From the IMG/VR virus record IMGVR_UViG_3300006162_000037, positions 1-31,423 of that record: a DNA stretch of 31,423 nucleotides, one strand, 5' to 3'. The DNA comes from a virus. The notes under the pieces were generated by a model, which worked only from the letters and a program-made list of their open reading frames with translations, did no database searches and had not been told where the DNA came from. Both the position numbers and the translations under genes were made by a program. The stretch's first letter is position 1, and each line of letters opens with the position of its first letter. Shown here one piece after another: positions 14,605 through 31,360 of this stretch.

Positions 14605-14606
14605 CA

Positions 14607-14636
14607 ATGCGATAATTATGGTATAATTATGCGATA
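14607..14636 (+). repeat. 8-bp direct repeat with tandem AT-palindrome around the gp25 start
   Basis: ATGCGATA occurs at 14607-14614 and 14629-14636, and the palindrome ATAATTAT at 14612-14619 and 14623-14630. The first copy reads ATG-CGA-TAA, a two-codon ORF with AGGA 5 nt upstream. The second copy is the start of the gp25-like gene, which lacks a clear ribosome site. TGGTATAAT at 14619-14627 matches an extended -10 promoter element, but it overlaps the start codon. Confidence 0.55.
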
Positions 14637-15000
14637 TCGAGCTTTAGACTCTAACGGAGATAGCACCTTCGGAAGTGGTAATACGAAATTTCTGGTAGAT
14701 TCACCGGCAGCTGTTGCCCAAGCCATACAGACGCGCTTGCTATTGATGACAGGCGAATGGTTTTTAGACACCAGCGAGGGCACACCATACGCGACACAGA
14801 TATTAGAGAATAACACAGAAAACGTATACGATCTCGCAATCCAAGACAGAATATTGAACACGCAGGGCGTGGCCGCAATTATCAGCTATCAAAGCACAAA
14901 AAACAGCCAAAGAGCCTTAACAGTTCAATCGAGCGTCGATACCATTTATTCGTCGGATTATAATTCAACAATAAACATTTCCACCAATATCGGGGGCTAA
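14629..15000 (+). CDS. Baseplate wedge protein, gpW/gp25-like
   Basis: The 123-aa protein has FLVDSPAAVAQAIQTRLLLMTGEWFLDTSEGTPY (residues 21-54), typical of the gp25-like wedge protein that nucleates sheath assembly at the baseplate. It follows the spike and precedes the gpJ protein, the standard order. No Shine-Dalgarno is obvious before ATG 14629; the nearest AGGA belongs to a two-codon ORF at 14607, so initiation may depend on re-initiation after the spike gene. Confidence 0.85.
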   Translation: MRYRALDSNGDSTFGSGNTKFLVDSPAAVAQAIQTRLLLMTGEWFLDTSEGTPYATQILENNTENVYDLAIQDRILNTQGVAAIISYQSTKNSQRALTVQSSVDTIYSSDYNSTINISTNIGG

Positions 15001-15001
15001 A

Positions 15002-16192
15002 TTGACAACGTACCCACTTTCAACTTTGGCCGCGCAGATAACCTCGGCCGGCATCAGCGCGCCCTCTTATTCTGATATTTATCAGTCATTGCAAGCCAGC
15101 TTTCAGAGTATTTACGGATCGGACTCCTATCTCGATCCTGATTCCCAAGATGGACAAATGCTCGCTATTTTCGCTCAAGCGATATCGGATTGTAATAATA
15201 CGGCGATCGCGACATACAATTCATTCAGCCCGGCAACAGCCCAAGGCGCAGGGTTATCCAGTAATGTTAAGATCAACGGCCTCCGTCGTCTCGTGCCTAC
15301 GAATAGCACCGTAAATCTATTAATCGGTGGCACTGCCGGCACGATAATAAGCAGCGGTATCGCAGCGGATGGGAACGGCAATCAATGGTTATTGCCTTCA
15401 ACTGTGACTATTGGATCTACTGGATCTGTGTTAGTAACAGCAACAGCGGCCAATCCGGGAGCGATTTCAGCTTCCCCTAATACTGTGACATCGATATTTA
15501 CTGCCGTTTTAGGGTGGCAGACAGTTACCAATCCATCGGCCGCCGTGCCGGGCGCCCTTGTGGAGACTGATGCGGCGCTGCGCGTGCGCCAATCCGCTTC
15601 GACCTCATTACCTGCACAATCCATCCTAGCGGCTATTTATGGCGCTCTGGCAAATATAACAGGGGTCGAGCAGTTACAGGTTTATCAAAACGATTTAAAT
15701 ACGGTAAATTCGCTAGGTATGCCACCTCATTCAATCGCAGCGGTAGTACAGGGTGGAGACGCAACAGCAATCGCGCAGACGATAAACGAAAAGAAAAATC
15801 CGGGTACCACTACATTCGGCACAACATCCGTGCTCGTACAAGATTCCGTGGGGATACCGAATAAGATAAATTTCTTTGTGCCGACACCTGTGGAAATCGC
15901 AGTCAATATCACTCTTAAAGCATTATCTGGGTACACTTCGACAATCGGATCACAGATCCTTAATAATGTGCTGGATTACATTAACTCGCTTGGTATATAC
16001 GCCAATGATGGATTGCTCTCGCTTTCGTCACTATATGAGCCAATATACGCAACGACCGCACCAAAGACGTACAACGTAACGGGGTTGCAAATAGCGATTA
16101 AGCCTAATTCGCCACTTGCCCAAGATCTCGCGATCGCTTTTAATCAGTTGCCATTTATAAGCGCGGCAGACATTAATCTTACGGTGACATAA
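15002..16192 (+). CDS. Baseplate J-like protein (gp47 family), TTG start
   Basis: The 396-aa product fits the baseplate J/gp47 family (PF04865), the wedge protein that links hub and fibres. Early segments SYLDPDSQDGQMLAIFAQAISDCNNTAIATYNSFSPATAQGAGLSSNVKINGLRR and the later VETDAALRVRQS are characteristic. The start is TTG at 15002, one base after the gp25 stop, preceded by GGGGG; the next in-frame ATG is about 50 codons later and would remove conserved sequence. The C-terminal part is beta-rich. Confidence 0.87.
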   Translation: MTTYPLSTLAAQITSAGISAPSYSDIYQSLQASFQSIYGSDSYLDPDSQDGQMLAIFAQAISDCNNTAIATYNSFSPATAQGAGLSSNVKINGLRRLVPTNSTVNLLIGGTAGTIISSGIAADGNGNQWLLPSTVTIGSTGSVLVTATAANPGAISASPNTVTSIFTAVLGWQTVTNPSAAVPGALVETDAALRVRQSASTSLPAQSILAAIYGALANITGVEQLQVYQNDLNTVNSLGMPPHSIAAVVQGGDATAIAQTINEKKNPGTTTFGTTSVLVQDSVGIPNKINFFVPTPVEIAVNITLKALSGYTSTIGSQILNNVLDYINSLGIYANDGLLSLSSLYEPIYATTAPKTYNVTGLQIAIKPNSPLAQDLAIAFNQLPFISAADINLTVT

Positions 16193-16202
16193 AGGGATTG
16201 TC

Positions 16203-16916
16203 ATGACGGAATCTTGGGATGATGGCAGTGATTATGACTCGGGCCAAGTATACGATAATTCATATATTGCGCTGATCACGAGCGAGCATAATAATAAACC
16301 GAATTTCGTTGCGGTAATGGCCGCATTGACTCAGCCTTTTATCGACCTGCAAAATGTGCAGATCTCAATGCCGCAGCTCTTTGATGTAGATGAAGCGATA
16401 GGAAATCAGCTCGACATCGTTGGCGAATGGATAGGTGAAACGCGGGATCTACAGGTGCCACTAACGGGGGTTTATTTCTCATTCGATACCGCAGGGCTAG
16501 GATTTGATCAAGGCACCATATTCGGGCCGTTCGATCCTACAACGCAGCTCGATGTTTTGCCTGATGATTCGTATAGACAGCTGCTTTATGCCGCGATCGC
16601 TAACAATCAATGGGATGGAACGATCCCGGGCGCATATGAGTTTATGGATAAGGTTTTCCCCGGAAATACTTTCTTCATCCAAGACAATCAAGACATGTCG
16701 ATGCTTATCGGTGTTATCGGAAACGTGCCATTAAACGCAGTAACGTATGCACTATTAACGGGCGGGTATTTGAACATAAAGCCCGCTGGTGTGCGTATAG
16801 ATGGATATGTGACGGCAAGCGTATCAGGCGCGCCATTATTCGGATTTGACGTAGAAAATACACTAATATCGGGCTTCGATGTCGGTGGCATAGCAACAAT
16901 TCAAGGAGGCAACTAA
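16203..16916 (+). CDS. Baseplate/tail protein, DUF2612 family
   Basis: The 237-aa protein has DVDEAIGNQLDIVGEWIGETR (about residues 62-82) and LPDDSYRQLLYAAIANNQWDGTIPGAYEFMDKVFPG, both marks of DUF2612 (PF11041), functionally like tail protein I (gpI). It connects the wedge to the tail fibre. Two near-duplicate segments, LFGFDVENTLISGFDVGG, close the C-terminus. A strong AAGGAGG for the next gene lies inside its last codons. Confidence 0.83.
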   Translation: MTESWDDGSDYDSGQVYDNSYIALITSEHNNKPNFVAVMAALTQPFIDLQNVQISMPQLFDVDEAIGNQLDIVGEWIGETRDLQVPLTGVYFSFDTAGLGFDQGTIFGPFDPTTQLDVLPDDSYRQLLYAAIANNQWDGTIPGAYEFMDKVFPGNTFFIQDNQDMSMLIGVIGNVPLNAVTYALLTGGYLNIKPAGVRIDGYVTASVSGAPLFGFDVENTLISGFDVGGIATIQGGN

Positions 16917-16917
16917 G

Positions 16918-18630
16918 ATGACAGGCAGCACACAAATACAAACATTTGCGATCGGCGCTGGTGCAAATGTATTATCACCCGCAGCATATGCGGCACTTGC
17001 GGCCGTATCTACGGGCTATCAGTCGGGAATAGCGGAATCGGTGCAGTTTAATACCACTTTGCGCCAAACTTCTTTCATGTCTGCCGCTTTGGCAAATTTC
17101 GTCGCCGCCCAAGGCTTGACGCAGAATGATGATGGCAATCTGACAAACGCAGTATCGAATATTGCGGCCGCCATAAAAACCCTTGTCGGATCACCGACCG
17201 TCTTCACGGGTGGTACCACAACCGGAACGGCCTCCGCGCAGGTATTGGCAACCCTTAATCAAACTGGATTCAGCCTACAAAATGGTTATACAGTAATCGC
17301 TACTTCGGGATTTACGAATACTGGCGCCTTTACTTACGACGTATTAGGAACGGGAAACGTACCCGTAAAGGAATTATCGGGCTCGAGTCTTATCGATCCT
17401 CCCGCAAGCTCAGTAGTCGCGTCGCAGAATTTTACAGTAGTATACAATTCCACTGCCGCCGTATGGGTACTGCAAACCACTGCCCCACTTGGTGCGGTGG
17501 CTTATCTTGCTTTAGGTAACAACGTCGGAAACGATGGGTCAAACAATCTTGTCGGGACAATTCCCCCCATTACCTCTACAGCTGCAAGCCTCAATTTTGC
17601 GACTGCGCAGTGGGGTGCAGATATAAGCCGTTCCAATGGTGGATCTGCCATGACGGATACATTGCCGGGTACCTCCGGGGCTCTTGGCGCCGGCTGGTAT
17701 ACTTACGTCACCAATAACGACACCTCGTCTTCCGATACGATCGGCGTCGGGGCTGGTGGATCTATCAAACAAGGCAATACATCAGTAACTACATTTTCGG
17801 TATTACCCGGCGAAAAATGGCTCATTGAGTCAAAGGGATCTGGTGTTTATACGGTAGGACGTATTCAAGGCTCTGCTATTCATGGCAACGTAGTACAAGG
17901 CGAAGCTAAAAACCTAAAGATAGTCAGCGGATCGGGTACGGCCGGAACAATTACAGCTGATGCAATTTCCGTGATGGATGCGAACGGTAATTCCTATCGT
18001 TTGCGCAACGTCAATCAATCCTATGCCACAGGAACTTCGGGTGCTGGTGGTCTTGATACAGGATCATTCGGTGCATCAGCTTGGTATTACGAATATATCA
18101 TTTTTAACCCATCAGCCAACACCGTTTCATCGTTATTATCACTCAGCTCAACGGCTCCTACACTTCCGACGGGATACACCGCTTTCGCTCGTGTCGGCGC
18201 GCGCTGGTCTAATGGTAGCTCGCAATTGTATTACAAGGTGCAATATGGTCGTAGAGCACAGGTTGTCTCGGGATCTAATCCATCCGCGCCGCTTTCGATG
18301 GCAAGTGGCGCTACAAGCTCTGCATGGACAGCGGTCGACATACGAAACTTCGTTCCGCCGACCTCTTCCATGATTATTGGTTATGCGTCTTTCCAAGGCG
18401 ATAATTATGCTATGGCGGTTGCTCCCAATGGATCTGGATACGGCGCAGGATCGAACGGATTATTAGCGCCGGCCGGTTTCGGATGCGGGGACAATACTTT
18501 CATCAATAATGCAAATATCCCATTCGAATTTTCCATAGAATCCACAAATATCTACTACACAACAATTAACAATGGTGGCTCTTTAAATTCAGCCAATGTG
18601 TATTTGCTTGGATGGGAAGATAACCTTTAA
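16918..18630 (+). CDS. Tail fibre protein with baseplate-attachment N-terminus
   Basis: The 570-aa protein directly follows the DUF2612 gene and has AAGGAGG at 16903-16909. Residues 1-90 (IQTFAIGAGANVLSPAAYAAL ... LTNAVSNIAAAIKTLV) match the N-terminal region of many phage fibres and should bind the baseplate. The middle is Thr/Gly-rich beta structure. Residues ~328-470 (GTITADAISVMDANGNSYRLRNV, then GSFGASAWYYEYIIFNP) form a fibre domain common in phages. The C-terminal ~100 residues are the likely receptor-binding part. It has no signal peptide, unlike the next fibre-like gene. Confidence 0.8.
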   Translation: MTGSTQIQTFAIGAGANVLSPAAYAALAAVSTGYQSGIAESVQFNTTLRQTSFMSAALANFVAAQGLTQNDDGNLTNAVSNIAAAIKTLVGSPTVFTGGTTTGTASAQVLATLNQTGFSLQNGYTVIATSGFTNTGAFTYDVLGTGNVPVKELSGSSLIDPPASSVVASQNFTVVYNSTAAVWVLQTTAPLGAVAYLALGNNVGNDGSNNLVGTIPPITSTAASLNFATAQWGADISRSNGGSAMTDTLPGTSGALGAGWYTYVTNNDTSSSDTIGVGAGGSIKQGNTSVTTFSVLPGEKWLIESKGSGVYTVGRIQGSAIHGNVVQGEAKNLKIVSGSGTAGTITADAISVMDANGNSYRLRNVNQSYATGTSGAGGLDTGSFGASAWYYEYIIFNPSANTVSSLLSLSSTAPTLPTGYTAFARVGARWSNGSSQLYYKVQYGRRAQVVSGSNPSAPLSMASGATSSAWTAVDIRNFVPPTSSMIIGYASFQGDNYAMAVAPNGSGYGAGSNGLLAPAGFGCGDNTFINNANIPFEFSIESTNIYYTTINNGGSLNSANVYLLGWEDNL

Positions 18631-18642
18631 GGAATAAAAATC

Positions 18643-20652
18643 ATGAAAAAGCTTTTATCGGTAATCCTCGGTTTTTTGTTGCTTGCATCGAATGCAGCGG
18701 GGCAGACTTCTACAATTAATCCGGGTATACCAGCGCAAGGAGCTCCGATATCATCGGCGCCCCTACGGCAAAATTTCCAATCCGCGTATAATGACATCAA
18801 TCGGATTTATAACCTATTACCCAATCCGATCGGCACGGTAACAAGCATCGCGGTTACGGGTGCTTCGGGGATATTGGTTACGGGAAGTCCGATAATAAAC
18901 ACGGGCACGATCGCTTTATCTCTCGGCGCCATTACTCCGACGCTAATCGATATCAACACCCCGGGATTCACGGATACAGGCGTCGCTATTCAGGCAACAG
19001 GCAACACTAACGGCTATTATCAACAGATCATTCAAAATACCAGCGCAGGTACATCATCGAGTGCAGACTATATTGTCTCTAATAACTTGGGTACGTCGTC
19101 CGCATATTTCGGGGATTTCGGCATCAATGGCAGCAATTTCACAGGTAGCGGATCTTTAAATCTTCCGAATGCTACATATCTTTATTCTGAAACCGGTGAT
19201 CTTGTGCTCGCGACACAAACGGCAAACTCTATCCATTTGCTGACAAGTGGCGCTACCACGGATGCCTTAACAATAGGCACAACCGGGTCGCTCACGATAC
19301 CCGCTTTCGGCGCAGGTGTATTACAGAGCTCGAGTGGCGGTCTTTTATCTTCGGCCACGGTACCCAATTCTTTGCTGGTAAATTCAGCAACGACAGTAAA
19401 CGGGCAGACATGCACTTTAGGTTCGAGCTGCACTGTATCGGCAACAACAGGGGCAACAGTATCAACATCATCGAATGCCTCATTTTATCCATTATTCGTG
19501 GCGTCTACCACAAACAGCAATCAAGCGTTTAATCTTAATTCTGCTTTCTCTGTCAATCCTTCAACTGGTGTATTTACAGCAACGGGGTTTTCAGGTTCAG
19601 GAGCTTCGCTTACAAGCTTAAATGCCAGCAACCTTTCAACGGGTACCGTATCAGTTAATCTTTTTAATGGTGGTAGTGGTGCATCATCCACTACATTTTT
19701 GCGCGGCGATGGAACATGGCAGACACCCGCATCAGGAAGCGGAACGGTTACGACCACAGGGACACCGGCAAACGGAAATCTTGCTTTCTTCTCTGGCAGC
19801 ACGTCGATAACAAATGGCACGGCCTTACCGAATGGAATAACTGCAACTACGCAAACGGCCGGGGATACGAGCACAAAGGTCGCCACAGACGCTTTTGTCA
19901 ATAATACGGCATTAACCCTTGCTACGGGAACAACGGGCACGACGCAGACATCGGGCGATAATACGACAAAAATTGCCACAGACGCTTTTGTGCAAACGGC
20001 TCTCGGTACAGGTGCAACCGGTAGTCTCGTGGCAGTCACCCCGATAACATCAAGCAGCACATGGACTCCTAACGCAGCGACCACACATGCCGTAATATGG
20101 TGTTGGGGATCTGGTGGTGGTGGCGGTGGTGTAGGTTCATCCGGCCCCGGTACAGGTAGCCCCGGCGGCACAACATCCGTCGGCTCTCTTTGTGTGGCAA
20201 CGGGCGGCTCTGGTGGTGTTGGATCAAGCACCTCTGGTGGTGCAGGTGGCGCCGGTGGCACGACATCGGGAGGCACGGGAAACTTTAAATTACCCGGCAG
20301 CGCGGGTAGCTCGGCAACCGTAACCTCTGCAAGTGTAACTGGTGGCGGTGTGGCAGGTGCACCGGGCATATGGGGAACTGGTGCGGGCGCTCCTACCAGT
20401 GGCGCAACGGGCGGTGCAGGTGCGGCTAACACAGGCGCGGGCGGCGGAACATGCGGTGCTATTACGACAGTCGTAGGGGGAGCCGGTGGTTCTGGTGGAG
20501 CTGGTGCGCAATCAATTGCTTATGCAACCAGCATATCAGGCACATATAGCGTTACGATTCCGTCTGGCGGCAACGGTGGAACGGCAGGTGCATCAGGTTA
20601 CGCCGGCGGTGCTGGTGGCTCGGGTGGTGTTTTAATTTGGGAATATAAATAG
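18643..20652 (+). CDS. Fibre-like protein with signal peptide and Gly-rich C-terminal domain
   Basis: The 669-aa protein starts with MKKLLSVILGFLLLASNAAG, a clear Sec signal pattern (Lys-Lys, hydrophobic core, small residues before Gln21). The body has fibre motifs: TVNGQTCTLGSSCTV, FLRGDGTWQTP, and two copies of a 31-residue unit with (T/S)KVATDAFV at about 403-450. Residues ~483-668 start with HAVIWCWGSGGGG and are a Gly-rich polyglycine-type domain, like the distal receptor-binding domains of some phage adhesins. AAGGA precedes the ATG. It is either an exported adhesin or a fibre with an unusual hydrophobic N-terminus. Confidence 0.75.
   Translation: MKKLLSVILGFLLLASNAAGQTSTINPGIPAQGAPISSAPLRQNFQSAYNDINRIYNLLPNPIGTVTSIAVTGASGILVTGSPIINTGTIALSLGAITPTLIDINTPGFTDTGVAIQATGNTNGYYQQIIQNTSAGTSSSADYIVSNNLGTSSAYFGDFGINGSNFTGSGSLNLPNATYLYSETGDLVLATQTANSIHLLTSGATTDALTIGTTGSLTIPAFGAGVLQSSSGGLLSSATVPNSLLVNSATTVNGQTCTLGSSCTVSATTGATVSTSSNASFYPLFVASTTNSNQAFNLNSAFSVNPSTGVFTATGFSGSGASLTSLNASNLSTGTVSVNLFNGGSGASSTTFLRGDGTWQTPASGSGTVTTTGTPANGNLAFFSGSTSITNGTALPNGITATTQTAGDTSTKVATDAFVNNTALTLATGTTGTTQTSGDNTTKIATDAFVQTALGTGATGSLVAVTPITSSSTWTPNAATTHAVIWCWGSGGGGGGVGSSGPGTGSPGGTTSVGSLCVATGGSGGVGSSTSGGAGGAGGTTSGGTGNFKLPGSAGSSATVTSASVTGGGVAGAPGIWGTGAGAPTSGATGGAGAANTGAGGGTCGAITTVVGGAGGSGGAGAQSIAYATSISGTYSVTIPSGGNGGTAGASGYAGGAGGSGGVLIWEYK
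19882..19991 (+). repeat. 31-codon tandem unit marked by a 17-bp exact repeat
   Basis: GCCACAGACGCTTTTGT occurs at 19882-19898 and 19975-19991, 93 nt (31 codons) apart, in the fibre-like gene. The encoded units share TTQT.GD..TK.ATDAFV, a repeat type common in phage fibre shafts. Exact identity at the DNA level in this core suggests recent duplication or recombination. Confidence 0.75.
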
Positions 20653-20660
20653 GAGTGGTT

Positions 20661-20888
20661 ATGCGATTTATAAAAATATTCTTATTCTCTGCATTATTTA
20701 GTTTTTCCGCATTTGCACAAAGCGATCAGGAATGGGCGCTCGTGGATGCAAATGGAATAGTGCAAAACATCATAGTCTACGATGGATCCTCTCCCTATAC
20801 GCCACCACAGGGATTAACGCTCGAGCAGGTCAATAATTGGGTGCAAATCGGACAGAATGTAAACACACCACAACCGACGCAGCAATAG
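20661..20888 (+). CDS. Small exported fibre-associated protein
   Basis: ATG 20661 is preferred over GTG 20655 because AGGAG at 20651-20655 lies 5 nt upstream of it, giving 75 aa. Residues 1-19 are a classic signal peptide with an Ala-Phe-Ala cleavage site before Gln20. The mature part (QEWALVDANGIVQNIIVYDG, then PQGLTLEQVNNWVQIG) resembles the small domain often found at the ends of phage tail-fibre proteins. It starts 8 nt after the stop of the Gly-rich fibre-like gene. The partner and function are unknown. Confidence 0.7.
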   Translation: MRFIKIFLFSALFSFSAFAQSDQEWALVDANGIVQNIIVYDGSSPYTPPQGLTLEQVNNWVQIGQNVNTPQPTQQ

Positions 20889-20897
20889 GGGCACATA

Positions 20898-21281
20898 ATG
20901 CGCTTAGTATTAAGAGATAACTGTGGGGGCGCTATATCGAGATTTCTCGATTTTATCCTCTTAAACGGCGAAACGGTAGCGCAACAGGCATCGCTCGCGG
21001 CTATCAATCTTTCGGGATATTCCTTAAAGATGCTCATCAACACTATGGTCGATGGGTTGGCGGAGCCCATTTTATTAACCACAGGTAACGGCGGCCTTGT
21101 AATTACCAGCTCTTCATCTTCGGGGAGCAATTTCACAATCAATATTCCATCATCAATAACCGCAAGTGTGGATCCCGGCACATACGCATACGATTGTTTT
21201 ATGGTGAGCCCCTCCGGCGTCGAAACTGCAATCCTATTGGGAACTTTTACTTTCCAGACAACCGAATCTCCGGTGCCGTAG
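20898..21281 (+). CDS. Small beta-rich tail-fibre-region protein
   Basis: The 127-aa protein has an N-terminal segment (ETVAQQASLAAINLSGYSLKMLIN) and a C-terminal segment (PGTYAYDCFMVSPSGVETAILLGTFTF). Together they resemble the small BppU-type N-terminal beta-sandwich domains that attach fibres or baseplate-associated proteins in many phages. AGGGG lies upstream. It has no signal peptide, although both flanking secreted proteins do. It probably works with the next gene, 1 nt downstream. Confidence 0.6.
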   Translation: MRLVLRDNCGGAISRFLDFILLNGETVAQQASLAAINLSGYSLKMLINTMVDGLAEPILLTTGNGGLVITSSSSSGSNFTINIPSSITASVDPGTYAYDCFMVSPSGVETAILLGTFTFQTTESPVP

Positions 21282-21282
21282 A

Positions 21283-21729
21283 ATGGGCATAGTCCTAAAC
21301 ATCACAGAGTCGCCTATACAAATCACGCTGCAAAATGACGTGATCGGTATAACGCTCAATCCACAGGTAATTAATATATCGCTTGCAGGGGTAGGCCCAC
21401 AGGGGCCAGCGGGGCCAAGTGGAAGCGAAAGTGGTGTGATTGTCACTTCGGGATCGACCTATACCGTTGAATCATCTCCCGGCTCTCCCTTTAATGTCAT
21501 AGTGCGCAAGGGAACAGGATCTCCCACAGATATAATATTACCTGCGCCAAACGCTAGCACACCGTGGAGCCGCGTATATGTGAAAGACGGCAAAGGGGAT
21601 GCGGAAACGCATAATATCACTGTAACCACCGAATCCGGGCTTGTGGATGGGGCGAGCGCATATGTAATGAGTACGAATTACGAAGGATTATCCTTTGTTG
21701 ATGATGGAACAGCTTGGAATATAGAATAA
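21283..21729 (+). CDS. Fibre-region protein with short collagen-like linker
   Basis: The 148-aa protein begins with a beta strand-rich module (IQITLQNDVIGITLNPQVINISL), then GPQGPAGPSG (residues about 38-47), a short Gly-X-Y collagen-like stretch of the kind that trimerises phage fibres, then a beta-rich C-terminus (DIILPAPNASTPWSRVYVKDGKGDAETHNITV). It is one base after the previous stop and overlaps the next start by one base (TAATG). The C-terminal pattern is common in phage tail proteins and suggests a trimeric adhesin module. Confidence 0.65.
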   Translation: MGIVLNITESPIQITLQNDVIGITLNPQVINISLAGVGPQGPAGPSGSESGVIVTSGSTYTVESSPGSPFNVIVRKGTGSPTDIILPAPNASTPWSRVYVKDGKGDAETHNITVTTESGLVDGASAYVMSTNYEGLSFVDDGTAWNIE

Positions 21730-24700
21730 TGAAAAATTATCTTTTTACACTATTGGGCCTATTGCTGATCTTGGTTTTTGGTGATGCACATGCTTATCAA
21801 CCGCCATGTGGTGCGGCCGGCGGTGTGCAATACAATAATTCTGGTCAATGTGGTGCCTTCGGTAATTATAACGGAACAACGCTTGCGATCGGCGCGCCCG
21901 TAACCGGCACCTCTTTTAATGGCTATCTATCCACCGGCAATATTTCGCAATTCACCAATAACAGCAATTATCTATCAAACATTACTGGCCTCGTAACTGC
22001 CGGGAGTAATATTACATTAAGCGGATCGGGCACCTCTGGAAGCCCTTATCATATTTCCGCCTCGGGTGGATCCCCGGCCGGCGGCAATGGATACATTCAA
22101 TATAATGAAAGCGGTGCCTTTGCGAGCGATGGGAATATACTCTATCAACCCACATTCCAACGGATGCAGATACCAAACATCTATGCCACTAGCGAGGTAG
22201 ATGTTGGCGCTGCTTTACGGCTTCTATGGCAGAGCAATCCCGGACAAATATTATTCCCCGAAACCACTACGGCAACTGGATTTGTAACAAGCGACTCAAA
22301 TCTTTTTTGGGATAACACGGGAAAAGTGCTTGGTCTCGGTACTTCCTCTCCCTCTTCTTCATCAAGGCTCGATTCTGTCGCTGCAAACGTTTCTATCGCA
22401 GCTCCTACAGTCTTAACAGCCTCGCTTTTGCCTGAGACGTTAATCGGCTCACCTAGTGATTCAGTTAGTCTGATTTATGGACCGCAAGACCCCGGCTCAT
22501 TCTATGGCAATGAAAATGCCTATCAGGGCTCGGGATATCAAAGCGACTGCCAAACACTGAATTACACAATTTATGCCTACGATATTATTAACGGTACCGA
22601 ATACACTTCTGCGGGTAGAATAAGCGTTCCTGTCACGGATTCTGTATGTGATTATTCATCGCTATTTACCGTGTCGTTGAATTGGCCAACTGCGACTAAT
22701 GGCGACGGCTCGGCAGTAAGCGGCTACATACTATCCGGCCCCTTTGGCTCTGTAGACTTAGGAGGCGGCACTTCATACACAGACGACGGCACAGGTCAAA
22801 GCGCGAGCTATACAAGCTTCGGTGGTTTCACAGCTTCCGGGCAATCCTTTGATTTTCAGCCTTTCAATTTGGCCACTGCGCCCGGCGGCGGTGTTTATAC
22901 ATCAGAACAAGGCAGTGATGCTTTTGTAACGGATTATTATAATAACGGCTCATCTTTTTGGGTGGTACATAACATATCTGGTGGCGGCACTGGCTGGAAC
23001 TCATATTTAATTTATGATGTAAATGAAAATGGATATTTCACAACTTCAAGTAATACTTACTACCAGACAAGTGGTATTGGTGGCGGTACTAATCCTTATC
23101 CAACACATTATGGTATCCAAGCAAATGGATCTAACTGGAATGAAGATTATCAGGCGTACGCAAAAGAAACATCGCCAAGCACGTTATATTCATCAACCTA
23201 CGCATCTTCGTCAACCAGCGACCCGAATGATGGGAATTATTACTATACGTCTCTGACTCTTTCAGATTTTGGAGGCGGCACGTCTGCGCGTATATTGGAA
23301 AGCCCTGATAGCTCTGGGTTTAATTATTATGCCGATACATCAAGTAGCACAATATATTACACAGCATTGAGTGACCCCTTTAGTTCTGGCAATACTGTAA
23401 CTCCAAACACCACAACTAATGTATCCATATTAGCAGAAAACTCTGCCGCATCAGTGTCCCAACCTGTTCAGATTATGGCGAACACCACGAACGCGGGAGG
23501 GTCGCCGGGGATGGGCCTTTCATTGAATGGGACGCAGATAGCAGACTGGCGCTGGAATCCTGCAAATGGCGCAGTAAAGTTTGATAATTCGGATAACGGA
23601 CAGTTCGATTTTGGGCAAAATAGTACGGTGTATAATTCTATTGGGTCTAGTTTTTTGACGCTGAACAAGGGTGCGCAAAATTATTACGACCTCAAAATTC
23701 TTAATGCCAATGGTTCTACATTTTTTGAGGCACAAGCTACAAACAATGTATTCAGATTTGGAGGCAATTCCTCCTATGGAAGCAGCAACCCACTTATGTC
23801 AGCTTTATTGCCTTCGGGCTTTGGCGGCCTCCACATGGAAAAAACTGACACGTCAACAAACCCATTTCTTGATTTTTACAATTCAACAGGCACACAGGTT
23901 TACTCAGTAAATAGTAGTGGGTATGTCACCTCCGCTTTAATTGGCAATGGAACATCAGGCATAAAGGTTGCTTCCGCCACTACAGATAAAATAGGATTTT
24001 ACGGTACCAATCCCATCACTCAACCCACCGGCGACGTTGCGACAGCTCTTTCAAATCTCGGTCTTGTTTCTTCGCCCACTGTTAGTGTGCCGATAGACTC
24101 TACGTTGCATTTTACATCTGGCAATTTAGGGTTAAACTTAGCTCATAATAATACATGGACGAATCAAACGGTATTCGATACCGGCGCTTCTAATTTCTTT
24201 GAAATCGGTGATTATACGGGATTACATGGCGCTTTCACGCTTATAACCAATAGCGCCCAGCTTACTGCATACACCTCGTCATACCCAGATGGCTTTTTTA
24301 ATATACAAGACGGATTAATGTATCTTGGCGATTATGTGGGTGATGTAAACGGGGAATATATTAGCATTAATGACCTGTCCAATGGTGGTATAGGAATTTA
24401 CAGCGGCCAATATTCTATTGATGATACGCTGGCAAATTTCAAACAAACCGTTGATATTGCTTCTACAATAAATTTTCAAACTACTTCTTCCAATAATGTA
24501 ATCACAACACCAAATTCTGCCGTTAATACAAATACAGGCGGCAATCTTAATATTACCTTGGGGAATGGATTATCTGCTACATCAGGCGCAACTACGAAAG
24601 GCGGAAGCACTACTTATTACACGGGTACAGGTGGTGCGGCAACCAGTACAGCGCACACGGGCGGTGCCGGCGGTGATTACATTTATAACACGGGTAATGG

Positions 24701-25610
24701 CGGCGCTGCTACGGGAACGGGTAGTCTTACAAATACTGGCGGCACTGGCGGTAGATTACAATTTAACGGCGGCACAGGCGGAACTGCGGGGAATTCATCC
24801 ACCAGAAACAATCCGGGCCAAGGTGGTGGCACAATATTCTTTGGTGGTCCGGGCGGAGCATTAGGTTCAGGCGCTTCAGGTGATGCGGCGGGCCAAGGTG
24901 GTAGTTTTGTTGGCATTGCAGGGGATGGCGGAACAAGCTCCACTAGCGGCACTACATCAGGCGCAGGTGGTATCGTATATCTTGCAGGTGGTGCGCCCGG
25001 CCCGGCTAATGGCGGCTCCACCGCTGGTGCGCGGGGCTGGGTAGCTTTAGCGACCACTAACTCTGGCTCTGCATCAGGACTGGTAGGAGTTCGCCTTGGC
25101 TCAACAGCGCCGACAGCGGCCTTGGATATTGTGGGCTCGACCACATCAAATGCTTCATTGCGCCTGAGAAGCGGCACTGCGCCCACTTCCCCGAATGACG
25201 GAGATTTGTGGTACGATGGCTCGCATTTTCAGGGAAGGATTGGAAGTACTACCTATCAGTTAGACCAGCAGCTCCCTCTTGTAGTAAGCAAGGTTGCATT
25301 GACAGCGCAAGCCGCCGATATAGGCTCAACTACAATTACGTCAACTGCGGGCGTTTATGATATCGATTATGTCTTGGAGGACACCACGGCCGATGCGACG
25401 GCTGGCTCTGTAACGCTTACTATATCATGGACAGACGGGGCGGGAAGCACCACTTCCACGGCAACGCAGGTCTTGACGACAAAAGGCAGAGCATCCGGGC
25501 GTATAGCATTACAGCTTGCATCGGGCAATTTAACCTATGCGATCTCACACACAGGAAGCTATGCTACGGCAAAATACGCACTTTACGCCACCACTACACG
25601 AATCCAATAA
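21729..25610 (+). CDS. Large fibre/adhesin-like protein with signal peptide
   Basis: Start ATG 21729 overlaps the previous stop; the product is 1293 aa. Residues 1-22 form a signal peptide (hydrophobic run, then Ala-His-Ala before Tyr23). Residues ~23-210 have repeated QYN.SG...F units and a WDNTGKVLGLGTSSP motif usual in fibre shafts. Residues ~226-360 contain fibronectin-III-like sequence (NYTIYAYDIINGTEYTS, SLNWPTATNGDGSAVSGYIL). Residues ~954-1094 are Gly-rich repeats. GTAPTSPNDGDLWYDG near 1150-1165 is a widespread fibre motif close to the C-terminus. Only two GATC sites lie between 22080 and 25520, unlike neighbours, suggesting separate acquisition. Confidence 0.75.
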   Translation: MKNYLFTLLGLLLILVFGDAHAYQPPCGAAGGVQYNNSGQCGAFGNYNGTTLAIGAPVTGTSFNGYLSTGNISQFTNNSNYLSNITGLVTAGSNITLSGSGTSGSPYHISASGGSPAGGNGYIQYNESGAFASDGNILYQPTFQRMQIPNIYATSEVDVGAALRLLWQSNPGQILFPETTTATGFVTSDSNLFWDNTGKVLGLGTSSPSSSSRLDSVAANVSIAAPTVLTASLLPETLIGSPSDSVSLIYGPQDPGSFYGNENAYQGSGYQSDCQTLNYTIYAYDIINGTEYTSAGRISVPVTDSVCDYSSLFTVSLNWPTATNGDGSAVSGYILSGPFGSVDLGGGTSYTDDGTGQSASYTSFGGFTASGQSFDFQPFNLATAPGGGVYTSEQGSDAFVTDYYNNGSSFWVVHNISGGGTGWNSYLIYDVNENGYFTTSSNTYYQTSGIGGGTNPYPTHYGIQANGSNWNEDYQAYAKETSPSTLYSSTYASSSTSDPNDGNYYYTSLTLSDFGGGTSARILESPDSSGFNYYADTSSSTIYYTALSDPFSSGNTVTPNTTTNVSILAENSAASVSQPVQIMANTTNAGGSPGMGLSLNGTQIADWRWNPANGAVKFDNSDNGQFDFGQNSTVYNSIGSSFLTLNKGAQNYYDLKILNANGSTFFEAQATNNVFRFGGNSSYGSSNPLMSALLPSGFGGLHMEKTDTSTNPFLDFYNSTGTQVYSVNSSGYVTSALIGNGTSGIKVASATTDKIGFYGTNPITQPTGDVATALSNLGLVSSPTVSVPIDSTLHFTSGNLGLNLAHNNTWTNQTVFDTGASNFFEIGDYTGLHGAFTLITNSAQLTAYTSSYPDGFFNIQDGLMYLGDYVGDVNGEYISINDLSNGGIGIYSGQYSIDDTLANFKQTVDIASTINFQTTSSNNVITTPNSAVNTNTGGNLNITLGNGLSATSGATTKGGSTTYYTGTGGAATSTAHTGGAGGDYIYNTGNGGAATGTGSLTNTGGTGGRLQFNGGTGGTAGNSSTRNNPGQGGGTIFFGGPGGALGSGASGDAAGQGGSFVGIAGDGGTSSTSGTTSGAGGIVYLAGGAPGPANGGSTAGARGWVALATTNSGSASGLVGVRLGSTAPTAALDIVGSTTSNASLRLRSGTAPTSPNDGDLWYDGSHFQGRIGSTTYQLDQQLPLVVSKVALTAQAADIGSTTITSTAGVYDIDYVLEDTTADATAGSVTLTISWTDGAGSTTSTATQVLTTKGRASGRIALQLASGNLTYAISHTGSYATAKYALYATTTRIQ

Positions 25611-25627
25611 TTTTAAAGGAAACTATT

Positions 25628-25867
25628 ATGGCTCTCTCAACCACACAAAAAGCACAGATAGCATTATTGCGCAGTAGGATTACTGATGAAGAATGGCAGC
25701 AAATGCCAAGTAGTGACGATTTCGCTATCAGCATAATTGCAAAATACACACCTCAATTAATTTCCATTATACAAAATAGAATACAGAGAAACACCGCATC
25801 GGTTGCGCAGCTTAATCAAGCGATCGCCACCGACACGGCCGACCTTGCTACGTTGCAAACGTCGTAG
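25628..25867 (+). CDS. Small helical protein of unknown function
   Basis: ATG 25628 is chosen because AAAGGAA lies 6 nt upstream; longer readings run back into the adhesin gene. The 79-aa product is helical: a short basic-acidic N-terminal part, then a segment (QLISIIQNRIQRNTASVAQLNQAIATDTADLATLQ) with coiled-coil spacing. It is followed 50 nt later by another coiled-coil gene, and the two look alike in style, perhaps an accessory pair of the adhesin or lysis genes. No family is recognised. Confidence 0.55.
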   Translation: MALSTTQKAQIALLRSRITDEEWQQMPSSDDFAISIIAKYTPQLISIIQNRIQRNTASVAQLNQAIATDTADLATLQTS

Positions 25868-25917
25868 TATTATTCGCTCACACATTTTTATTAACCAGCT
25901 CTTCGAAAGGATATTTT

Positions 25918-26172
25918 ATGACTGCAAATTTATCACAACTTCAACAGCAATTAGCTGTCGCGCAAGCGCAGGTGACACAATTCACAACGCAGCAAACGGC
26001 TTATAACTCACAGATAGATTCCATAAACAAAAATGCCGCCGCGCAGGTCGCCTCTATCCAGACACAGCTTGTAACCTTGAATAATAACCTAACCAATGAG
26101 AACGCCTTAATAGCATCGTTACAGTCACAGATTGCGGCCATAAACACACCTAGCGCGCCATCCGGTCAATAG
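25918..26172 (+). CDS. Coiled-coil protein of unknown function
   Basis: The 84-aa product is nearly all coiled coil (Gln/Ala/Leu-rich, residues 4-74), ending in a Pro/Ser tail. GAAAGGA lies upstream. It has no charged surface motif or membrane segment. It could be a fibre-trimerising or lysis-cassette accessory protein; the sequence itself says only that it oligomerises. Confidence 0.55.
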   Translation: MTANLSQLQQQLAVAQAQVTQFTTQQTAYNSQIDSINKNAAAQVASIQTQLVTLNNNLTNENALIASLQSQIAAINTPSAPSGQ

Positions 26173-26195
26173 TAGTTAAAAATGGGGAATCGTTT

Positions 26196-26522
26196 ATGCA
26201 AGACGAAAAAGTGGATTATCAAGGCAAGAGCCACAAAAAACGTAATACAATACATCAGAATTTTATTGCTAAATTTTGGGATAAAAACACTCCGTTACCG
26301 CAGCTCGTGGGTTATGTGTTTATGTTGATGACGATCGTGGGTACAGCCTCAGCGGTATGGACGGCGCTCAATAACACAGTATCCGCACACGAGACACGCC
26401 TTGCAGCTCATGAATCGCGCTTAACTTCGATCGAGACTTGGAAACAAGATAAAGATACGAGAGACGCGCGCATAGAGCAAAAATTAGACGATATTCACGA
26501 CGCCTTGCTACAGAAACACTAA
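26196..26522 (+). CDS. Membrane-anchored coiled-coil protein in the lysis cassette
   Basis: The 108-aa protein has a basic N-terminus (KSHKKRN), one transmembrane segment at about 38-60 (VGYVFMLMTIVGTASAVW), then a heptad-like coiled coil with HETRLAAHESRLTSIETW. A basic N-terminus inside and a coiled coil outside would place the coil in the periplasm. It lies directly before the endolysin, the usual place for a holin or regulator. A one-helix holin or antiholin, or a membrane-tethered coil, are all possible. It is not the i-spanin, since a better candidate pair follows. GGGGAA is the ribosome site. Confidence 0.55.
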   Translation: MQDEKVDYQGKSHKKRNTIHQNFIAKFWDKNTPLPQLVGYVFMLMTIVGTASAVWTALNNTVSAHETRLAAHESRLTSIETWKQDKDTRDARIEQKLDDIHDALLQKH

Positions 26523-26554
26523 TCCCCATCATCAACTTAAAAGAGAGGACTATC

Positions 26555-27160
26555 ATGGTAGACGAAACAAACGATGATTCTACTGAAACGACTGCCACTT
26601 CCGGCGGCCTTATCAGTAAAATAACGGGGCTTTTTGGTGGACATCAAGAGCCTACTTCTGATGCCACTGATAGCACCGACACGTCGGATTCTGATGATTT
26701 TCAGATTCCGTATGTAGATCCACACCTCGAGATTAAAGTTGTGGCTCAAACAGTATGGGCAGAAGATCGCAGCGGCGGCATACCGGGTATGTCAGCGGTC
26801 GCTAATGTTATCGGCAACCGTGTCGCGATCGCGCGTAAATATATCGAGGACAACAACGAGCCGCATCCGCTTTATGGAAATGGCACATTTACGGATTGTT
26901 GCAAGCGCCCGGAGCAATTTTCTTGCTGGAACAATGGGGATCCTAATCTCCCGTTATTGCAAACAGTAACGATCAGCAATCCGCTATTCTTACAAGCCAT
27001 GCAGATCGCCTCGCAAGAGGTTACAGGCGTATTGCTCGATGAAACAAAAGCGGCAACGCATTACATAGCTAAGACGATCGCGCATTTTCCGGCTTGGGCA
27101 AAAGGATTAGAGCCATGTGCAGATATCGGTGGGCAATGGTTTTATAACAACGTGCCGTAA
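26555..27160 (+). CDS. Endolysin: SleB-like cell-wall hydrolase
   Basis: Residues ~58-201 match the SleB/Hydrolase_2 (PF07486) fold: VVAQTVWAEDRSGG with catalytic Glu70, a GMSAVANVIGNRV helix, RPEQFSCW, the ATHYIAK strand (167-173) and a C-terminal IGGQWFY. The enzyme cuts peptidoglycan glycan strands. Residues 1-50 are an Asp/Ser/Thr-rich linker with a small amphipathic patch (GLISKITGLFGG, 18-29). There is no signal peptide, so a holin is needed. GAGAGGA is a strong ribosome site. Confidence 0.85.
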   Translation: MVDETNDDSTETTATSGGLISKITGLFGGHQEPTSDATDSTDTSDSDDFQIPYVDPHLEIKVVAQTVWAEDRSGGIPGMSAVANVIGNRVAIARKYIEDNNEPHPLYGNGTFTDCCKRPEQFSCWNNGDPNLPLLQTVTISNPLFLQAMQIASQEVTGVLLDETKAATHYIAKTIAHFPAWAKGLEPCADIGGQWFYNNVP

Positions 27161-27163
27161 TCG

Positions 27164-27192
27164 TTGACACTTTAGTTTTCAAGTCGCATAAT
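27164..27192 (+). promoter_or_regulatory. Near-consensus sigma70 promoter
   Basis: TTGACA (27164-27169) and CATAAT (27187-27192) are separated by exactly 17 bp, in the 69-nt gap between the endolysin and the Ala-rich gene. It should start transcripts near 27199, upstream of the AAGGAG at 27216-27221, and would drive the 27230 gene and both spanins. It lies at the end of a long run of closely packed genes. Confidence 0.7.
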
Positions 27193-27229
27193 TCACAGGC
27201 TAGCATTTTAACATTAAGGAGTATTTTTT

Positions 27230-27670
27230 ATGAGTATCTCAACTTTATGGGCTGAATTTGTTACATGGTGGACTGGCTCTGCTATTGGCAAAGCAATCGA
27301 TTCTGATGCACAGGCCGCTATTGCTGAATTAGAAAGCATTGGCGCACAACAGGCAGAGGCCGCCGGCCTTACTATTGCCGAAGCCGCTCTCGCAGGTTTG
27401 GCAACTGGTGGCGCTGCTGGTGCTTTTGCTGCTGGTGTCGCTGCTGCACCTGCTGCACTCAAAACAGCTGAAAATAATATCAGCAACGCGACAGTTAATA
27501 CGCTGGTTTCAAGTGTAGTAAATCAGATCCAGAATCAACAGGCTGGCGCTACTTCTCAGTCGGGGAATGTTGTTCCTACTGGCTCTCTCGCCTCTACTAC
27601 TGAATCAGCTTCTACCGAAGCATCGACAAGTGCTTCCTCTACGACAGAAACAACCGGCGCAGCTGGTTAA
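27230..27670 (+). CDS. Ala/Gly-rich protein of unknown function behind its own promoter
   Basis: The 146-aa protein has an N-terminal Trp-containing helix (LWAEFVTWWTGS), an Ala-rich weakly hydrophobic segment (48-77, with GGAAGAF), and a Ser/Thr-rich tail (107-146) likely to be unstructured. The middle resembles the helices of pore-forming or membrane-associated small proteins, which fits the slot between endolysin and spanins, but it is too weak for a firm transmembrane call. AAGGAG and a sigma70-type promoter lie directly upstream. A holin-like role is possible but not shown. Confidence 0.55.
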   Translation: MSISTLWAEFVTWWTGSAIGKAIDSDAQAAIAELESIGAQQAEAAGLTIAEAALAGLATGGAAGAFAAGVAAAPAALKTAENNISNATVNTLVSSVVNQIQNQQAGATSQSGNVVPTGSLASTTESASTEASTSASSTTETTGAAG

Positions 27671-27671
27671 T

Positions 27672-27899
27672 ATGTGGACTGCTATAACAGCAATCTTCTC
27701 GATAATTTCTGGGCTATTGGGTATCCCCCAATGGCTCAGAGATCGAGCGAATGTTAAACAGGGCAAGATTGACCAGCAATTATCCGATGCGAATGCCCTG
27801 CAAGCACAGGAGGATAAAGCTCATGAAGTCACTCAATCAACTGGTGCTCTTAGCGATGATGCTATCGCTGACAAGCTGCGCGACTACACAATCAAATAG
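27672..27899 (+). CDS. Inner-membrane spanin (Rz-like)
   Basis: ATG 27672 lies one base after the previous stop; longer readings begin inside the Ala-rich gene. The 75-aa product has an N-terminal membrane segment (TAITAIFSIISGLLGI, residues 3-18) and then a charged helix, the i-spanin topology, with the coil in the periplasm. The o-spanin gene begins within it in the +1 frame. Spanins fuse inner and outer membranes in the last lysis step and are found only with Gram-negative hosts. The helix is short compared with lambda Rz, so the call leans on the partner. Confidence 0.72.
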   Translation: MWTAITAIFSIISGLLGIPQWLRDRANVKQGKIDQQLSDANALQAQEDKAHEVTQSTGALSDDAIADKLRDYTIK

Positions 27900-28026
27900 C
27901 TTTTGCAGTATCGCCAATCCTATCTATATTTCTAAAAACGACAAACTCACACCGAACACCGCCCAGCAGATCTATAACCATGATGTCACTGGCACCGTGT
28001 TGTGTGGGTGGGTTAAGACGAAATAA
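27823..28026 (+). CDS. Outer-membrane lipoprotein spanin (Rz1-like)
   Basis: The 67-aa ORF starts at ATG 27823 with AGGAGG at 27808-27813, overlapping the i-spanin by 77 nt in the +1 frame. Residues 1-18 are a lipoprotein signal with a lipobox Leu-Thr-Ser-Cys (lipidated Cys19). The mature part, with SFCSIANPIYISKNDKLTPNTAQQIYNHD, matches the short o-spanin-like lipoproteins seen at this position in other phages. It would link the outer membrane to the i-spanin. Its last 14 nt overlap a gene on the other strand. Confidence 0.8.
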   Translation: MKSLNQLVLLAMMLSLTSCATTQSNSFCSIANPIYISKNDKLTPNTAQQIYNHDVTGTVLCGWVKTK

Positions 28027-28387
28027 CGGCTTTTATTTTCTCGTCAAATGGGCCGGGCATGTCGTGCTTTAGCCAGAGCCGCATAAACTCCTCGAGGTTA
28101 TACTCAACGCAATAGGACACTTGCAGATCCTTGCGATATTTCTTGGCCGGGGATCCAAGCATGAAAATACAATCCAGAGCGACTCGGCCGTGTTTAGAAT
28201 GATCGTATTCTATCCATGCGTGGGCTATTGTCTTTCCAAGATCATCCGGGTGATTTGCAATCCCGATCCCGTGGCAGATAACCATATTATCCCCGTGGTG
28301 CGTTAAAAACGTCTTGGCCGTGCTATCGAAGCAGGATCCAAAGGGATTGACGTTCTTACGGCCGTTTATGATCATATCCCGGCTCAT
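28013..28387 (-). CDS. Possible Cys-His-Asp (papain/transglutaminase-like) protein
   Basis: The 124-aa protein contains NPFGSCFDSTAKTFL with Cys19 at the start of a helix, then KTIAHAWIEYD with His56, then RVALDCIF with Asp72. That order and spacing (Cys, HAW.E, ..D) recall transglutaminase- or papain-like folds. The C-terminal YRKDLQVSYCVEYNLEEFMRLW is a likely helix-strand end. Similar small proteins occur in other phages without an assigned role. GGAG lies upstream of ATG 28387. It is convergent to the spanins and overlaps the o-spanin end by 14 nt. The triad is an inference from pattern. Confidence 0.5.
   Translation of the reverse strand: MSRDMIINGRKNVNPFGSCFDSTAKTFLTHHGDNMVICHGIGIANHPDDLGKTIAHAWIEYDHSKHGRVALDCIFMLGSPAKKYRKDLQVSYCVEYNLEEFMRLWLKHDMPGPFDEKIKAVISS
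28017..28045. terminator. Possible weak inverted repeat at the convergent gene ends
   Basis: GACGA-AATAA (28017-28026) can pair with TTATT and TCGTC (28033-28045), with a 6-nt loop and a 3-nt bulge. It sits across the overlapping stops of the o-spanin gene and the minus-strand gene. It is AT-rich and has no clear T-tract, so termination is doubtful. Confidence 0.25.
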
Positions 28388-28388
28388 C

Positions 28389-28661
28389 TCAGCTCCGCAG
28401 TAAATGCTTTATTGCTTGGCCATCGCAAGCACTGCAAAGGTTATCTCCTACCCAATGGCAAGTGTAGCCGGTGCGTTCAATGCACCCATTGCAATTTGTG
28501 TCATTGCATCCGCATTTATAACACACGCGGAGATTTTTAGGCGCATCCATGCCGCATTGATTGCAGGTATATTTCCCCCCAATCTTTATATAAAAGTGCC
28601 GGCATTTTTCCTGTCGGGCTGTTTTTTTATTTTGCGGTGAGCACATAATCGACCAGATCAT
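28389..28661 (-). CDS. Cys-rich, probably zinc-binding protein
   Basis: The 90-aa reading has CxxC pairs at 33/36, 47/50 and 76/79 plus Cys52, 57, 60 and 68, suggesting two or three zinc ribbons or knuckles. An alternative start at Met6 (28646) is as likely, since neither ATG has a clear ribosome site and both lie within the small ORF upstream (28627-28740), from which translation may be coupled. Such proteins bind nucleic acids or act as small adaptors; the function is not shown. Its stop lies just before the start of the possible Cys-His-Asp gene. Confidence 0.6.
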   Translation of the reverse strand: MIWSIMCSPQNKKTARQEKCRHFYIKIGGKYTCNQCGMDAPKNLRVCYKCGCNDTNCNGCIERTGYTCHWVGDNLCSACDGQAIKHLLRS

Positions 28662-28740
28662 AAACGGCAGCGGCCGGTAGCCACCACATTGAAAAATTCC
28701 CCAAGCTGGCTATTTTTAGCGCGACAAGCAATGTAAACAT
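28627..28740 (-). CDS. Small hydrophobic protein, 37 aa
   Basis: This short ORF starts at ATG 28740, one base after the stop of the upstream gene. A run of GGGGGG in that gene's last codons lies about 6 nt before it, a very strong ribosome site. The product has hydrophobic stretches at 1-14 and 18-35, so it is probably a membrane peptide. Its end overlaps the start of the Cys-rich gene in another frame. The tight coupling and strong site support a real gene. Confidence 0.55.
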   Translation of the reverse strand: MFTLLVALKIASLGNFSMWWLPAAAVYDLVDYVLTAK

Positions 28741-28741
28741 A

Positions 28742-29032
28742 TTATTCCCCCCTTTTGATTAAGCCGAGATGCCCCCGGCGTAGTTTTTCCGTTTCCTGCC
28801 ATTTTCGCTCTAGTGTTATTTCCTGCTTGCTCAATGGCTCTTTTCCCCAATGTATACGCTCGGCCCAATGCAGGATGGATCTCTGGATATTAAACTCTTG
28901 TATGGCTTCCCGGGCTTGTTCCGTTTCGCTATGAGCGAAGTCGCTCCCCACCAGCTGAATCATACGCGCTCGAGATTGCTCGGTTAAATACATGAGCTGC
29001 GCGAGTATGTTCGCTGTTACGGGGTTCGTCAT
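28742..29032 (-). CDS. Helical phage protein of unknown function
   Basis: The 96-aa protein is largely alpha-helical with Glu/Arg-rich segments (MTNPVTANILAQLMYLTEQSRARMIQL, then SETEQAREAIQEFNIQRSIL) and a basic C-terminus. No motif identifies it. AGGAAAGG precedes the ATG, and it is coupled to the small hydrophobic ORF that follows. The gene is typical of phage accessory clusters. Confidence 0.55.
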   Translation of the reverse strand: MTNPVTANILAQLMYLTEQSRARMIQLVGSDFAHSETEQAREAIQEFNIQRSILHWAERIHWGKEPLSKQEITLERKWQETEKLRRGHLGLIKRGE

Positions 29033-29033
29033 A

Positions 29034-29270
29034 TCAATTTGCCTTTCCTGTTACGGCAGGATCAAAGTTTAATATCATATTTAGTACCTCGAGCAAAGCT
29101 TGTGCATTTTTGTCTGTCATGATAACGGCGCTCCGATAATGCCCTTCTCCGGGATTATACTCTTCGCGGAAGGAAATGCGGATACCGCCTTCCATTTTCC
29201 CGACGAAGAAATTATTAATGTAAATCGCCGGCGTGGCGTGGATCTCCTTTAGATCGGGTTCATTTTTCAT
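29034..29270 (-). CDS. Small DUF3467-like protein
   Basis: The 78-aa protein has PAIYINNFFVGKMEGGIRISFRE followed by HYRSAVIMTDKNAQALLEVLNMIL. This arrangement of a short strand-turn part and a C-terminal helix resembles the small DUF3467 family, whose function is unknown. AAAGGA lies upstream of ATG 29270. It sits 1 nt before the next gene's start and 6 nt after the DUF6378 gene. Confidence 0.5.
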   Translation of the reverse strand: MKNEPDLKEIHATPAIYINNFFVGKMEGGIRISFREEYNPGEGHYRSAVIMTDKNAQALLEVLNMILNFDPAVTGKAN

Positions 29271-29276
29271 TGATCT

Positions 29277-29552
29277 CTATCCTTTGTTAGAATGGAGTGT
29301 ATCAGCCACAAGTTTTGTATAACCCACAATGTCATGCCAGCTATCGTGATATTCGGGGTCGCCATTAAGTATGCGCCCTATCTTATGAGCGATCATATCG
29401 AGAGCCTCGCGCTTATCAGGGGAAAGGCGTTGCCATCCGGCAGTTCCGTGCATGGTGTCCTTCAACCGCTGTGTTATCCAAGCGTGTCCAGAAAAATCAC
29501 CATAACGCTTCCCGCGCTCTGCGAGCGTTGTTTCTATGGTTTCTGACTCCAT
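29277..29552 (-). CDS. DUF6378 family phage protein
   Basis: The 91-aa protein contains ERGKRYGDF (12-20), a KREALDMIAHKIGRILNGDP segment (47-66) and YHDSWHDIVGYTKLV (68-82), the conserved landmarks of DUF6378, common in phages of Proteobacteria. The conserved His/Asp/Lys positions suggest an enzymatic or nucleotide-related role, but none is established to my knowledge. GGGGGG lies upstream of ATG 29552. It continues the minus-strand accessory operon. Confidence 0.75.
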   Translation of the reverse strand: MESETIETTLAERGKRYGDFSGHAWITQRLKDTMHGTAGWQRLSPDKREALDMIAHKIGRILNGDPEYHDSWHDIVGYTKLVADTLHSNKG

Positions 29553-29553
29553 A

Positions 29554-29928
29554 CTACTTCCCCCCCTCTGTTTTGGTTAATAAATGCTCCACATATTGTT
29601 GTTTTAACCTGTTCCATATTGCATCGTCGCCCATTGGCAAAATGATTGGTATCCAATACTCAGAAGCCCAGAGTGAGGTTCCGTCATGCCAGCATTGACC
29701 GTTGTTTTGATCGCATTTTTTGTTATGCGAACCCTTACCTAAATATTTAGGCTTTGATTCTTTAGTGTAATGATATTCCACACCACCATAATATCTTTCG
29801 CCACCCCCTCCTTGCCATTCCTTACCAGTTTCATTTACCCAAAATGACACGCTCCCTAATTTTCCTGAGACACACCATTCCTGCCTGCCGTCTGGGTATT
29901 CAAAATATTTTTTGATTATATCATTCAT
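29554..29928 (-). CDS. Hypothetical phage protein
   Basis: ATG 29928 is chosen because AGGAGAAG lies about 7 nt upstream, while the longer reading starts inside the neighbouring gene. The 124-aa product opens NDIIKKYFEYPDGRQEW and has several Trp and Gly-rich turns (YYGGVEYHYTKES, SEYWIPIILP). No family is recognised. It starts 1 nt after the stop of the 346-aa gene and ends with TKTEGGK, the C-terminal copy of a repeated 13-bp element. Confidence 0.55.
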   Translation of the reverse strand: MNDIIKKYFEYPDGRQEWCVSGKLGSVSFWVNETGKEWQGGGGERYYGGVEYHYTKESKPKYLGKGSHNKKCDQNNGQCWHDGTSLWASEYWIPIILPMGDDAIWNRLKQQYVEHLLTKTEGGK

Positions 29929-31346: not shown

Positions 31347-31360
31347 ATATTCTCCCAATG

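Follow-up and report, generated by a model that had tools for sequence, protein, structure and literature searches.

The DNA analysed here (the window) is a stretch of 31,423 nucleotides, and the family matches of its open reading frames mark it as a fragment of the genome of a contractile-tailed phage. Its genes follow the order portal, protease, capsid, sheath, tape measure, baseplate, fibres, endolysin and an overlapping spanin-like pair, and the presence of the endolysin together with this pair makes a diderm host very likely. The features of the tail and lysis regions are as follows:

15002-16192, plus strand: baseplate wedge (J-like) protein, phrog_6 (E 2.6e-61), which marks the tail module
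16203-16916, plus strand: 237-aa tail or structural protein, phrog_587, the anchor gene for finding relatives
16918-18630, plus strand: 570-aa conventional tail fibre with an N-terminal attachment region (phrog_11303), signal peptide absent
18643-20652, plus strand: 669-aa fibre-like protein, predicted to be exported from its signal anatomy
18643-18702, plus strand: Sec signal peptide called by rule in the 669-aa protein, same slot and type in the relative L002
18709-18813, plus strand: mature N-terminal module of the 669-aa protein, STINPGIPAQGAPISSAPLRQNFQSAYNDINRIY, common to eight other viral contigs
19399-19434, plus strand: cysteine-pair motif of the 669-aa protein, NGQTCTLGSSCT, found by pattern scan in 79 viral loci
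20095-20652, plus strand: glycine-rich C-terminal tip region of the 669-aa protein, from its sequence; the L113 fibre ends similarly
20661-20888, plus strand: 75-aa Tfa-like helper, predicted to be exported (signal peptide 20661-20717, mature domain from 20718)
20898-21281, plus strand: 127-aa protein, phrog_1084, without signal peptide
21283-21729, plus strand: 148-aa protein with a weak baseplate-family match, without signal peptide
21729-25610, plus strand: 1293-aa fibre- or adhesin-like protein with 4 cysteines, predicted to be exported (signal peptide 21729-21794)
26555-27160, plus strand: endolysin (Hydrolase_2), without signal peptide
27672-27899, plus strand: i-spanin-like protein with an N-terminal membrane segment
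27823-28026, plus strand: o-spanin-like lipoprotein (MMLSLTSC), overlapping the i-spanin

The genes of the late tail operon are separated by 1-12 bases or overlap, as do the stop codon of the 148-aa gene and the start of the 1293-aa gene. A consensus scan of positions 14500-31423, including the cassette, returned 33 promoter-like sites against 31.1 expected, which is the chance level. A near-consensus sigma-70 promoter (TTGACA-17-CATAAT) lies at 27164-27192, directly 3' of the endolysin gene, and a short stretch of the 148-aa protein (GPQGPAGPSG) is collagen-like.

Signal peptides were called with a set of our own rules rather than with SignalP, the rules being a charged n-region, a hydrophobic h-region and the -3/-1 rule. 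The main counts given below rest on a strict version of this caller, which misses some obvious signals, while a loose version yields false calls (L053, L089 and the 405-aa protein of L002). The first-pass annotation had placed Sec-type signals on the 669-, 75- and 1293-aa proteins and none on the 570-aa fibre or the 127- and 148-aa proteins, and both statements were borne out, as were its coordinates. The three positive proteins have n-, h- and c-regions and a -3/-1 site, with predicted cleavage at MKKLLSVILGFLLLASNAAG|QTST in the 669-aa protein, MRFIKIFLFSALFSFSAFA|QSDQ in the 75-aa protein and MKNYLFTLLGLLLILVFGDAHA|YQPP in the 1293-aa protein; no lipobox cysteine (SPII) stands at any of these sites. 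The lengths of 75 and 1293 aa refer to ATG starts, and a 77-aa version of the former is possible from a GTG start. The caller found no signal in the 570-, 127- and 148-aa proteins, it flagged the spanin-like lipoprotein at 27823 in addition, and the other late structural proteins of the window were negative. The background of the caller is low. Among 476 open reading frames upstream of the tail genes, taken from 78 relatives, 7 were positive. Of the fibre-like proteins, none of 48 from ordinary phages was called, and 1 of 83 was called among relatives of the tail genes of the window. Therefore, three signals in six adjacent genes are not a product of chance.

The 669- and 1293-aa proteins matched no family in Pfam, PHROG or PDB, they lack the known N-terminal attachment domains (phrog_11303, PF03906), and tblastn searches of cultured phages with both proteins and with a 52-aa module as queries gave no match. 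Related phages were examined for signal peptides in the same gene slot, as had been proposed, and the closest relative (L002) has a signal there as well; its mature protein opens with the 35-residue module of the 669-aa protein and continues into another, tailspike-looking body, so that signal and module form a conserved unit with swapped bodies. Eight further viral contigs contain the module, about seven of them with a signal in front of it, one of these judged by eye, with L113 and L021 listed as exceptions. Eight matches to the module pattern in genome contigs were inspected and none was judged a real relative. A related N-terminal motif (SSEINxNFxxxYNxxNKI) was seen in signal-bearing proteins of bacterial genomes (L124, L125 and L126) with no obvious phage genes adjoining. 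On a phage contig of 120 kb, four signal-bearing genes stand in a row within the tail region (L112:6629-10558), and one of them encodes a 209-aa protein that is rich in His at its start. At L087:11979-13322 a tailspike-like protein (GAKVDGVSDDS) starts with a twin-arginine-like leader, MSDRRRSFIAGAASSASALFAALISGRVAG, which possibly reflects Tat export of a phage tailspike.

The 75-aa protein had been counted among three exported fibre-like products; its predicted export is retained, but it is, by its sequence, a Tfa-like fibre-assembly helper and not a fibre. It contains the YAxVxNGxVxNVIVWDG region (Tfa N-terminal), which defines a family common in phages, and longer members of this family have the Caudo_TAP domain of tail-fibre assembly proteins C-terminal to the shared region. 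The two helper-family profiles match each other (hhalign E 1.6e-25), and the long form matches the Mu chaperone gpU in 5YVQ. The predicted structure of the 75-aa protein has 5yvq_B as its top Foldseek match, a weak one from an AlphaFold model of only moderate quality (pLDDT 70); a C-terminal PF02413 domain was not matched in it, and a scan of viral contigs with the protein itself as query returned no relative. Its mature part is 67% identical over 49 aa to a signal-less 53-aa protein of L113, which starts exactly where the mature domain starts. The L113 helper gene lies downstream of that of a fibre which shares the mature N-terminal module; both of these proteins are signal-less, whereas their counterparts in the window each bear a signal. 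No convincing signal was found among about 50 distinct homologues of the helper, and three signal-positive open reading frames in that set (L223, L245, L248) were poor or unrelated. Fibre and helper thus appear to have changed compartment together, and this joint retargeting would be the strongest single hint that the two fold together outside the cytoplasm.

Viral contigs were scanned, irrespective of signals, with the motif NGQTCTLGSSCT, which gave 79 viral loci with 84 open reading frames. With the strict caller 56 of the 84 were signal-positive, 18 were 5'-truncated, and nine of the remaining ten had a signal by eye. Another signal-bearing open reading frame lay within two genes in 20 of 40 motif loci. 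The phrog_6 baseplate wedge was located upstream in five loci (L128, L129, L151, L186 and L194), at least two of which also carry phrog_587, like the window. A scan of 398 genomes of the Bosea phylum did not find the motif, and the cysteine-motif fibre is therefore not a common host protein. In L161 and L201 a unit NGxxCTLGxSCT occurs eight times per locus in signal-bearing fibres, often at about 260-base spacing, and these are shaft repeats with one cysteine pair each. Dozens of uncultured phages have fibre-like proteins with predicted signals in their tail cassettes, in many cases several in one cassette. The system proposed in the first-pass annotation as undescribed is thus not a one-off, and no description of it was found in the open-access literature.

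Because disulfides pair cysteines in the oxidising periplasm, an even number of cysteines is expected in exported fibres. Even counts were found in 57 of 71 signal-bearing fibres (strict caller), most of which come from the cysteine-motif scan, vs 69 of 137 signal-less fibres; other residues in the same proteins were even in 44-56%. After clustering by similarity a sign test gave p 6e-7 for the signal-bearing and 0.45 for the signal-less fibres. The excess was present among signal-bearing fibres with at least four cysteines (54/64) and among those without the motif (26/32, p 3e-4), while the loci not picked by motif (5/7 even) are uninformative, several of the seven being false signal calls. 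In the window itself the 669-aa protein has 5 cysteines, an odd number, and the 1293-aa protein has 4. The parity supports disulfides formed in the periplasm, and together with the signal anatomy and its conservation in relatives it makes Sec export and oxidative folding of the fibres a prediction held with high confidence.

Where the signal stands with respect to virion attachment was apparent in two unrelated fibre families, in both of which it replaces the virion-attachment domain. The 451-aa protein of L112 shares 34% identity with a non-exported fibre of L110 along about 350 residues, but at the position of the L110 attachment region it carries a signal together with another segment; the attachment region itself (phrog_11303) is encoded in L112 by a separate 194-aa gene. 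Among cultured phages, signal-bearing fibres were found in Burkholderia phage BcepC6B (gp19) and Xanthomonas phage PBR31 (gp35), both consisting of a signal and the C-terminal half of phrog_11393 fibres, and their signal-less relatives in Pectobacterium phage CB5 and Klebsiella phage SAA231 carry the PF03906 T7 attachment domain. In L163 the signal precedes a module that is the N-terminus of the tailspikes of PBR31 and Shewanella phage X14; the N-terminal tailspike part of PBR31 is regarded as apparently virion-binding (PMC10975493). In Pseudomonas phage PAE2 (L331:5025-7031) a tailspike-like open reading frame of about 669 aa is unannotated, and two short opposite-strand open reading frames are annotated instead.

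Several known systems share parts of this arrangement. In the Tfa/gpU systems (Caudo_TAP, PF02413; Mu complex PDB 5YVQ) the fibre gene is likewise followed by that of a small partner, the N-terminal part of which resembles the mature 75-aa domain; however, in the window both members of the pair carry Sec signals and the partner is without the C-terminal Caudo_TAP domain. BcepC6B gp19 and PBR31 gp35 are like the window fibres in joining a signal to a tail-fibre body, in lying within the tail module directly ahead of the lysis genes and in the paired cysteines of their mature parts, but they belong to another fibre family, no Tfa-like partner was seen, and their annotation records do not mention the signal. 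T5 Llp, Cor and lambda Lom and Bor bear signals and are encoded beside receptor-binding genes, but are small lipoproteins or outer-membrane barrels and not fibres. SAR and signal endolysins, the T4 RI antiholin and spanins are phage proteins that use Sec (PMC6116005, PMC8385771), as predicted in the window, but function in lysis. The esterase gp40 of PBR31, which resembles tail-associated hydrolases, was reported with a signal peptide (PMC10975493) and is likewise signal-bearing, but an enzyme rather than a fibre. The signals found in the open-access literature were those of endolysins, antiholins, spanins and this one esterase, and the searches turned up none on a tail fibre. As far as these searches go, the components are already known and the compartment is new.

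The explanation that we favour, tentatively, is that exported accessory fibres fold in the periplasm and join virions at lysis. The 669- and 1293-aa proteins would be accessory adhesin fibres made late together with the tail genes and exported by Sec, the 669-aa fibre along with its own small helper. After presumed cleavage of the signals they would acquire disulfides and probably trimerise in the periplasm, and would be held there until lysis by holin, endolysin and spanin mixes them with finished virions, on the tails of which they would then most likely dock as extra receptor-binding fibres. Docking is supported by N-terminal similarity, the mature window fibre matching the N-terminus of a signal-less fibre in L113 and mature L163 those of signal-less tailspikes in PBR31 and Shewanella X14, by the shafts of the signal-bearing fibres, which reach about 1700 aa, and by the location directly after the baseplate genes.

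The same export and disulfide folding could instead yield adhesins that never join the virion, but are released at lysis and coat receptors on debris, vesicles or neighbouring cells, sparing the progeny from trapping. T5 Llp gives comparable protection of progeny by another route. The replacement of the attachment domain by a signal in gp19, gp35 and L112, and thus in two unrelated families, fits such free proteins better than docking, and the genes stand beside that of a conventional fibre or tailspike. However, a soluble decoy needs neither long shafts nor N-terminal modules common to virion fibres, and binding to neighbouring cells could hurt the phage. Docking on the tail is favoured over free release because of the long shafts, the shared N-terminal modules and the dedicated helper, and free adhesins are regarded as a rather unlikely, if serious, alternative.

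Lysogenic conversion is improbable; here the proteins would act for the lysogen as adhesins, either on its surface or secreted, comparable to lambda Lom and Bor or to Cor-type exclusion proteins. Similar N-terminal motifs in signal-bearing proteins of bacterial chromosomes (L124-L126) speak for it, as do an integrase gene in BcepC6B and the description of PBR31 as temperate (PMC10975493). On the other hand, the genes lie in the late tail operon with gaps of 1-12 bases and overlaps, promoter-like sites are at chance level in the consensus scan, and no outer-membrane anchor or autotransporter domain was recognised with Pfam; for its operon position and the lack of promoter excess, the lysogen surface role is the least likely of the three that had been proposed, beside superinfection decoys and fibres joining at lysis. 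That the signals are false, being hydrophobic N-termini left uncleaved in fibres assembled in the cytoplasm, for instance as a trimer core, is very improbable, for although the calls come from a rule-based caller and cleavage is predicted, the full n/h/c anatomy with -3/-1 sites, the Gln that many relatives have at +1, the even-cysteine excess and a helper family that bears a signal only where its fibre does all argue against it.

The cytoplasm is regarded as the place where the virion parts of tailed phages fold and are assembled. Some phages probably make fibres outside it. Still more tentatively, it is possible that many tailed phages possess a second, periplasmic assembly line: fibres and a Tfa-like helper of their own would leave the cytoplasm by export, become disulfide-bonded and be kept outside until lysis, and only then join virions. 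The proposal is directly testable in sequenced, cultured phages such as BcepC6B. If true, widespread exported and disulfide-bonded fibres would shift where receptor-binding proteins mature, and the class would matter for the prediction of receptor-binding proteins in uncultured phages and for the choice between periplasmic and cytoplasmic expression.
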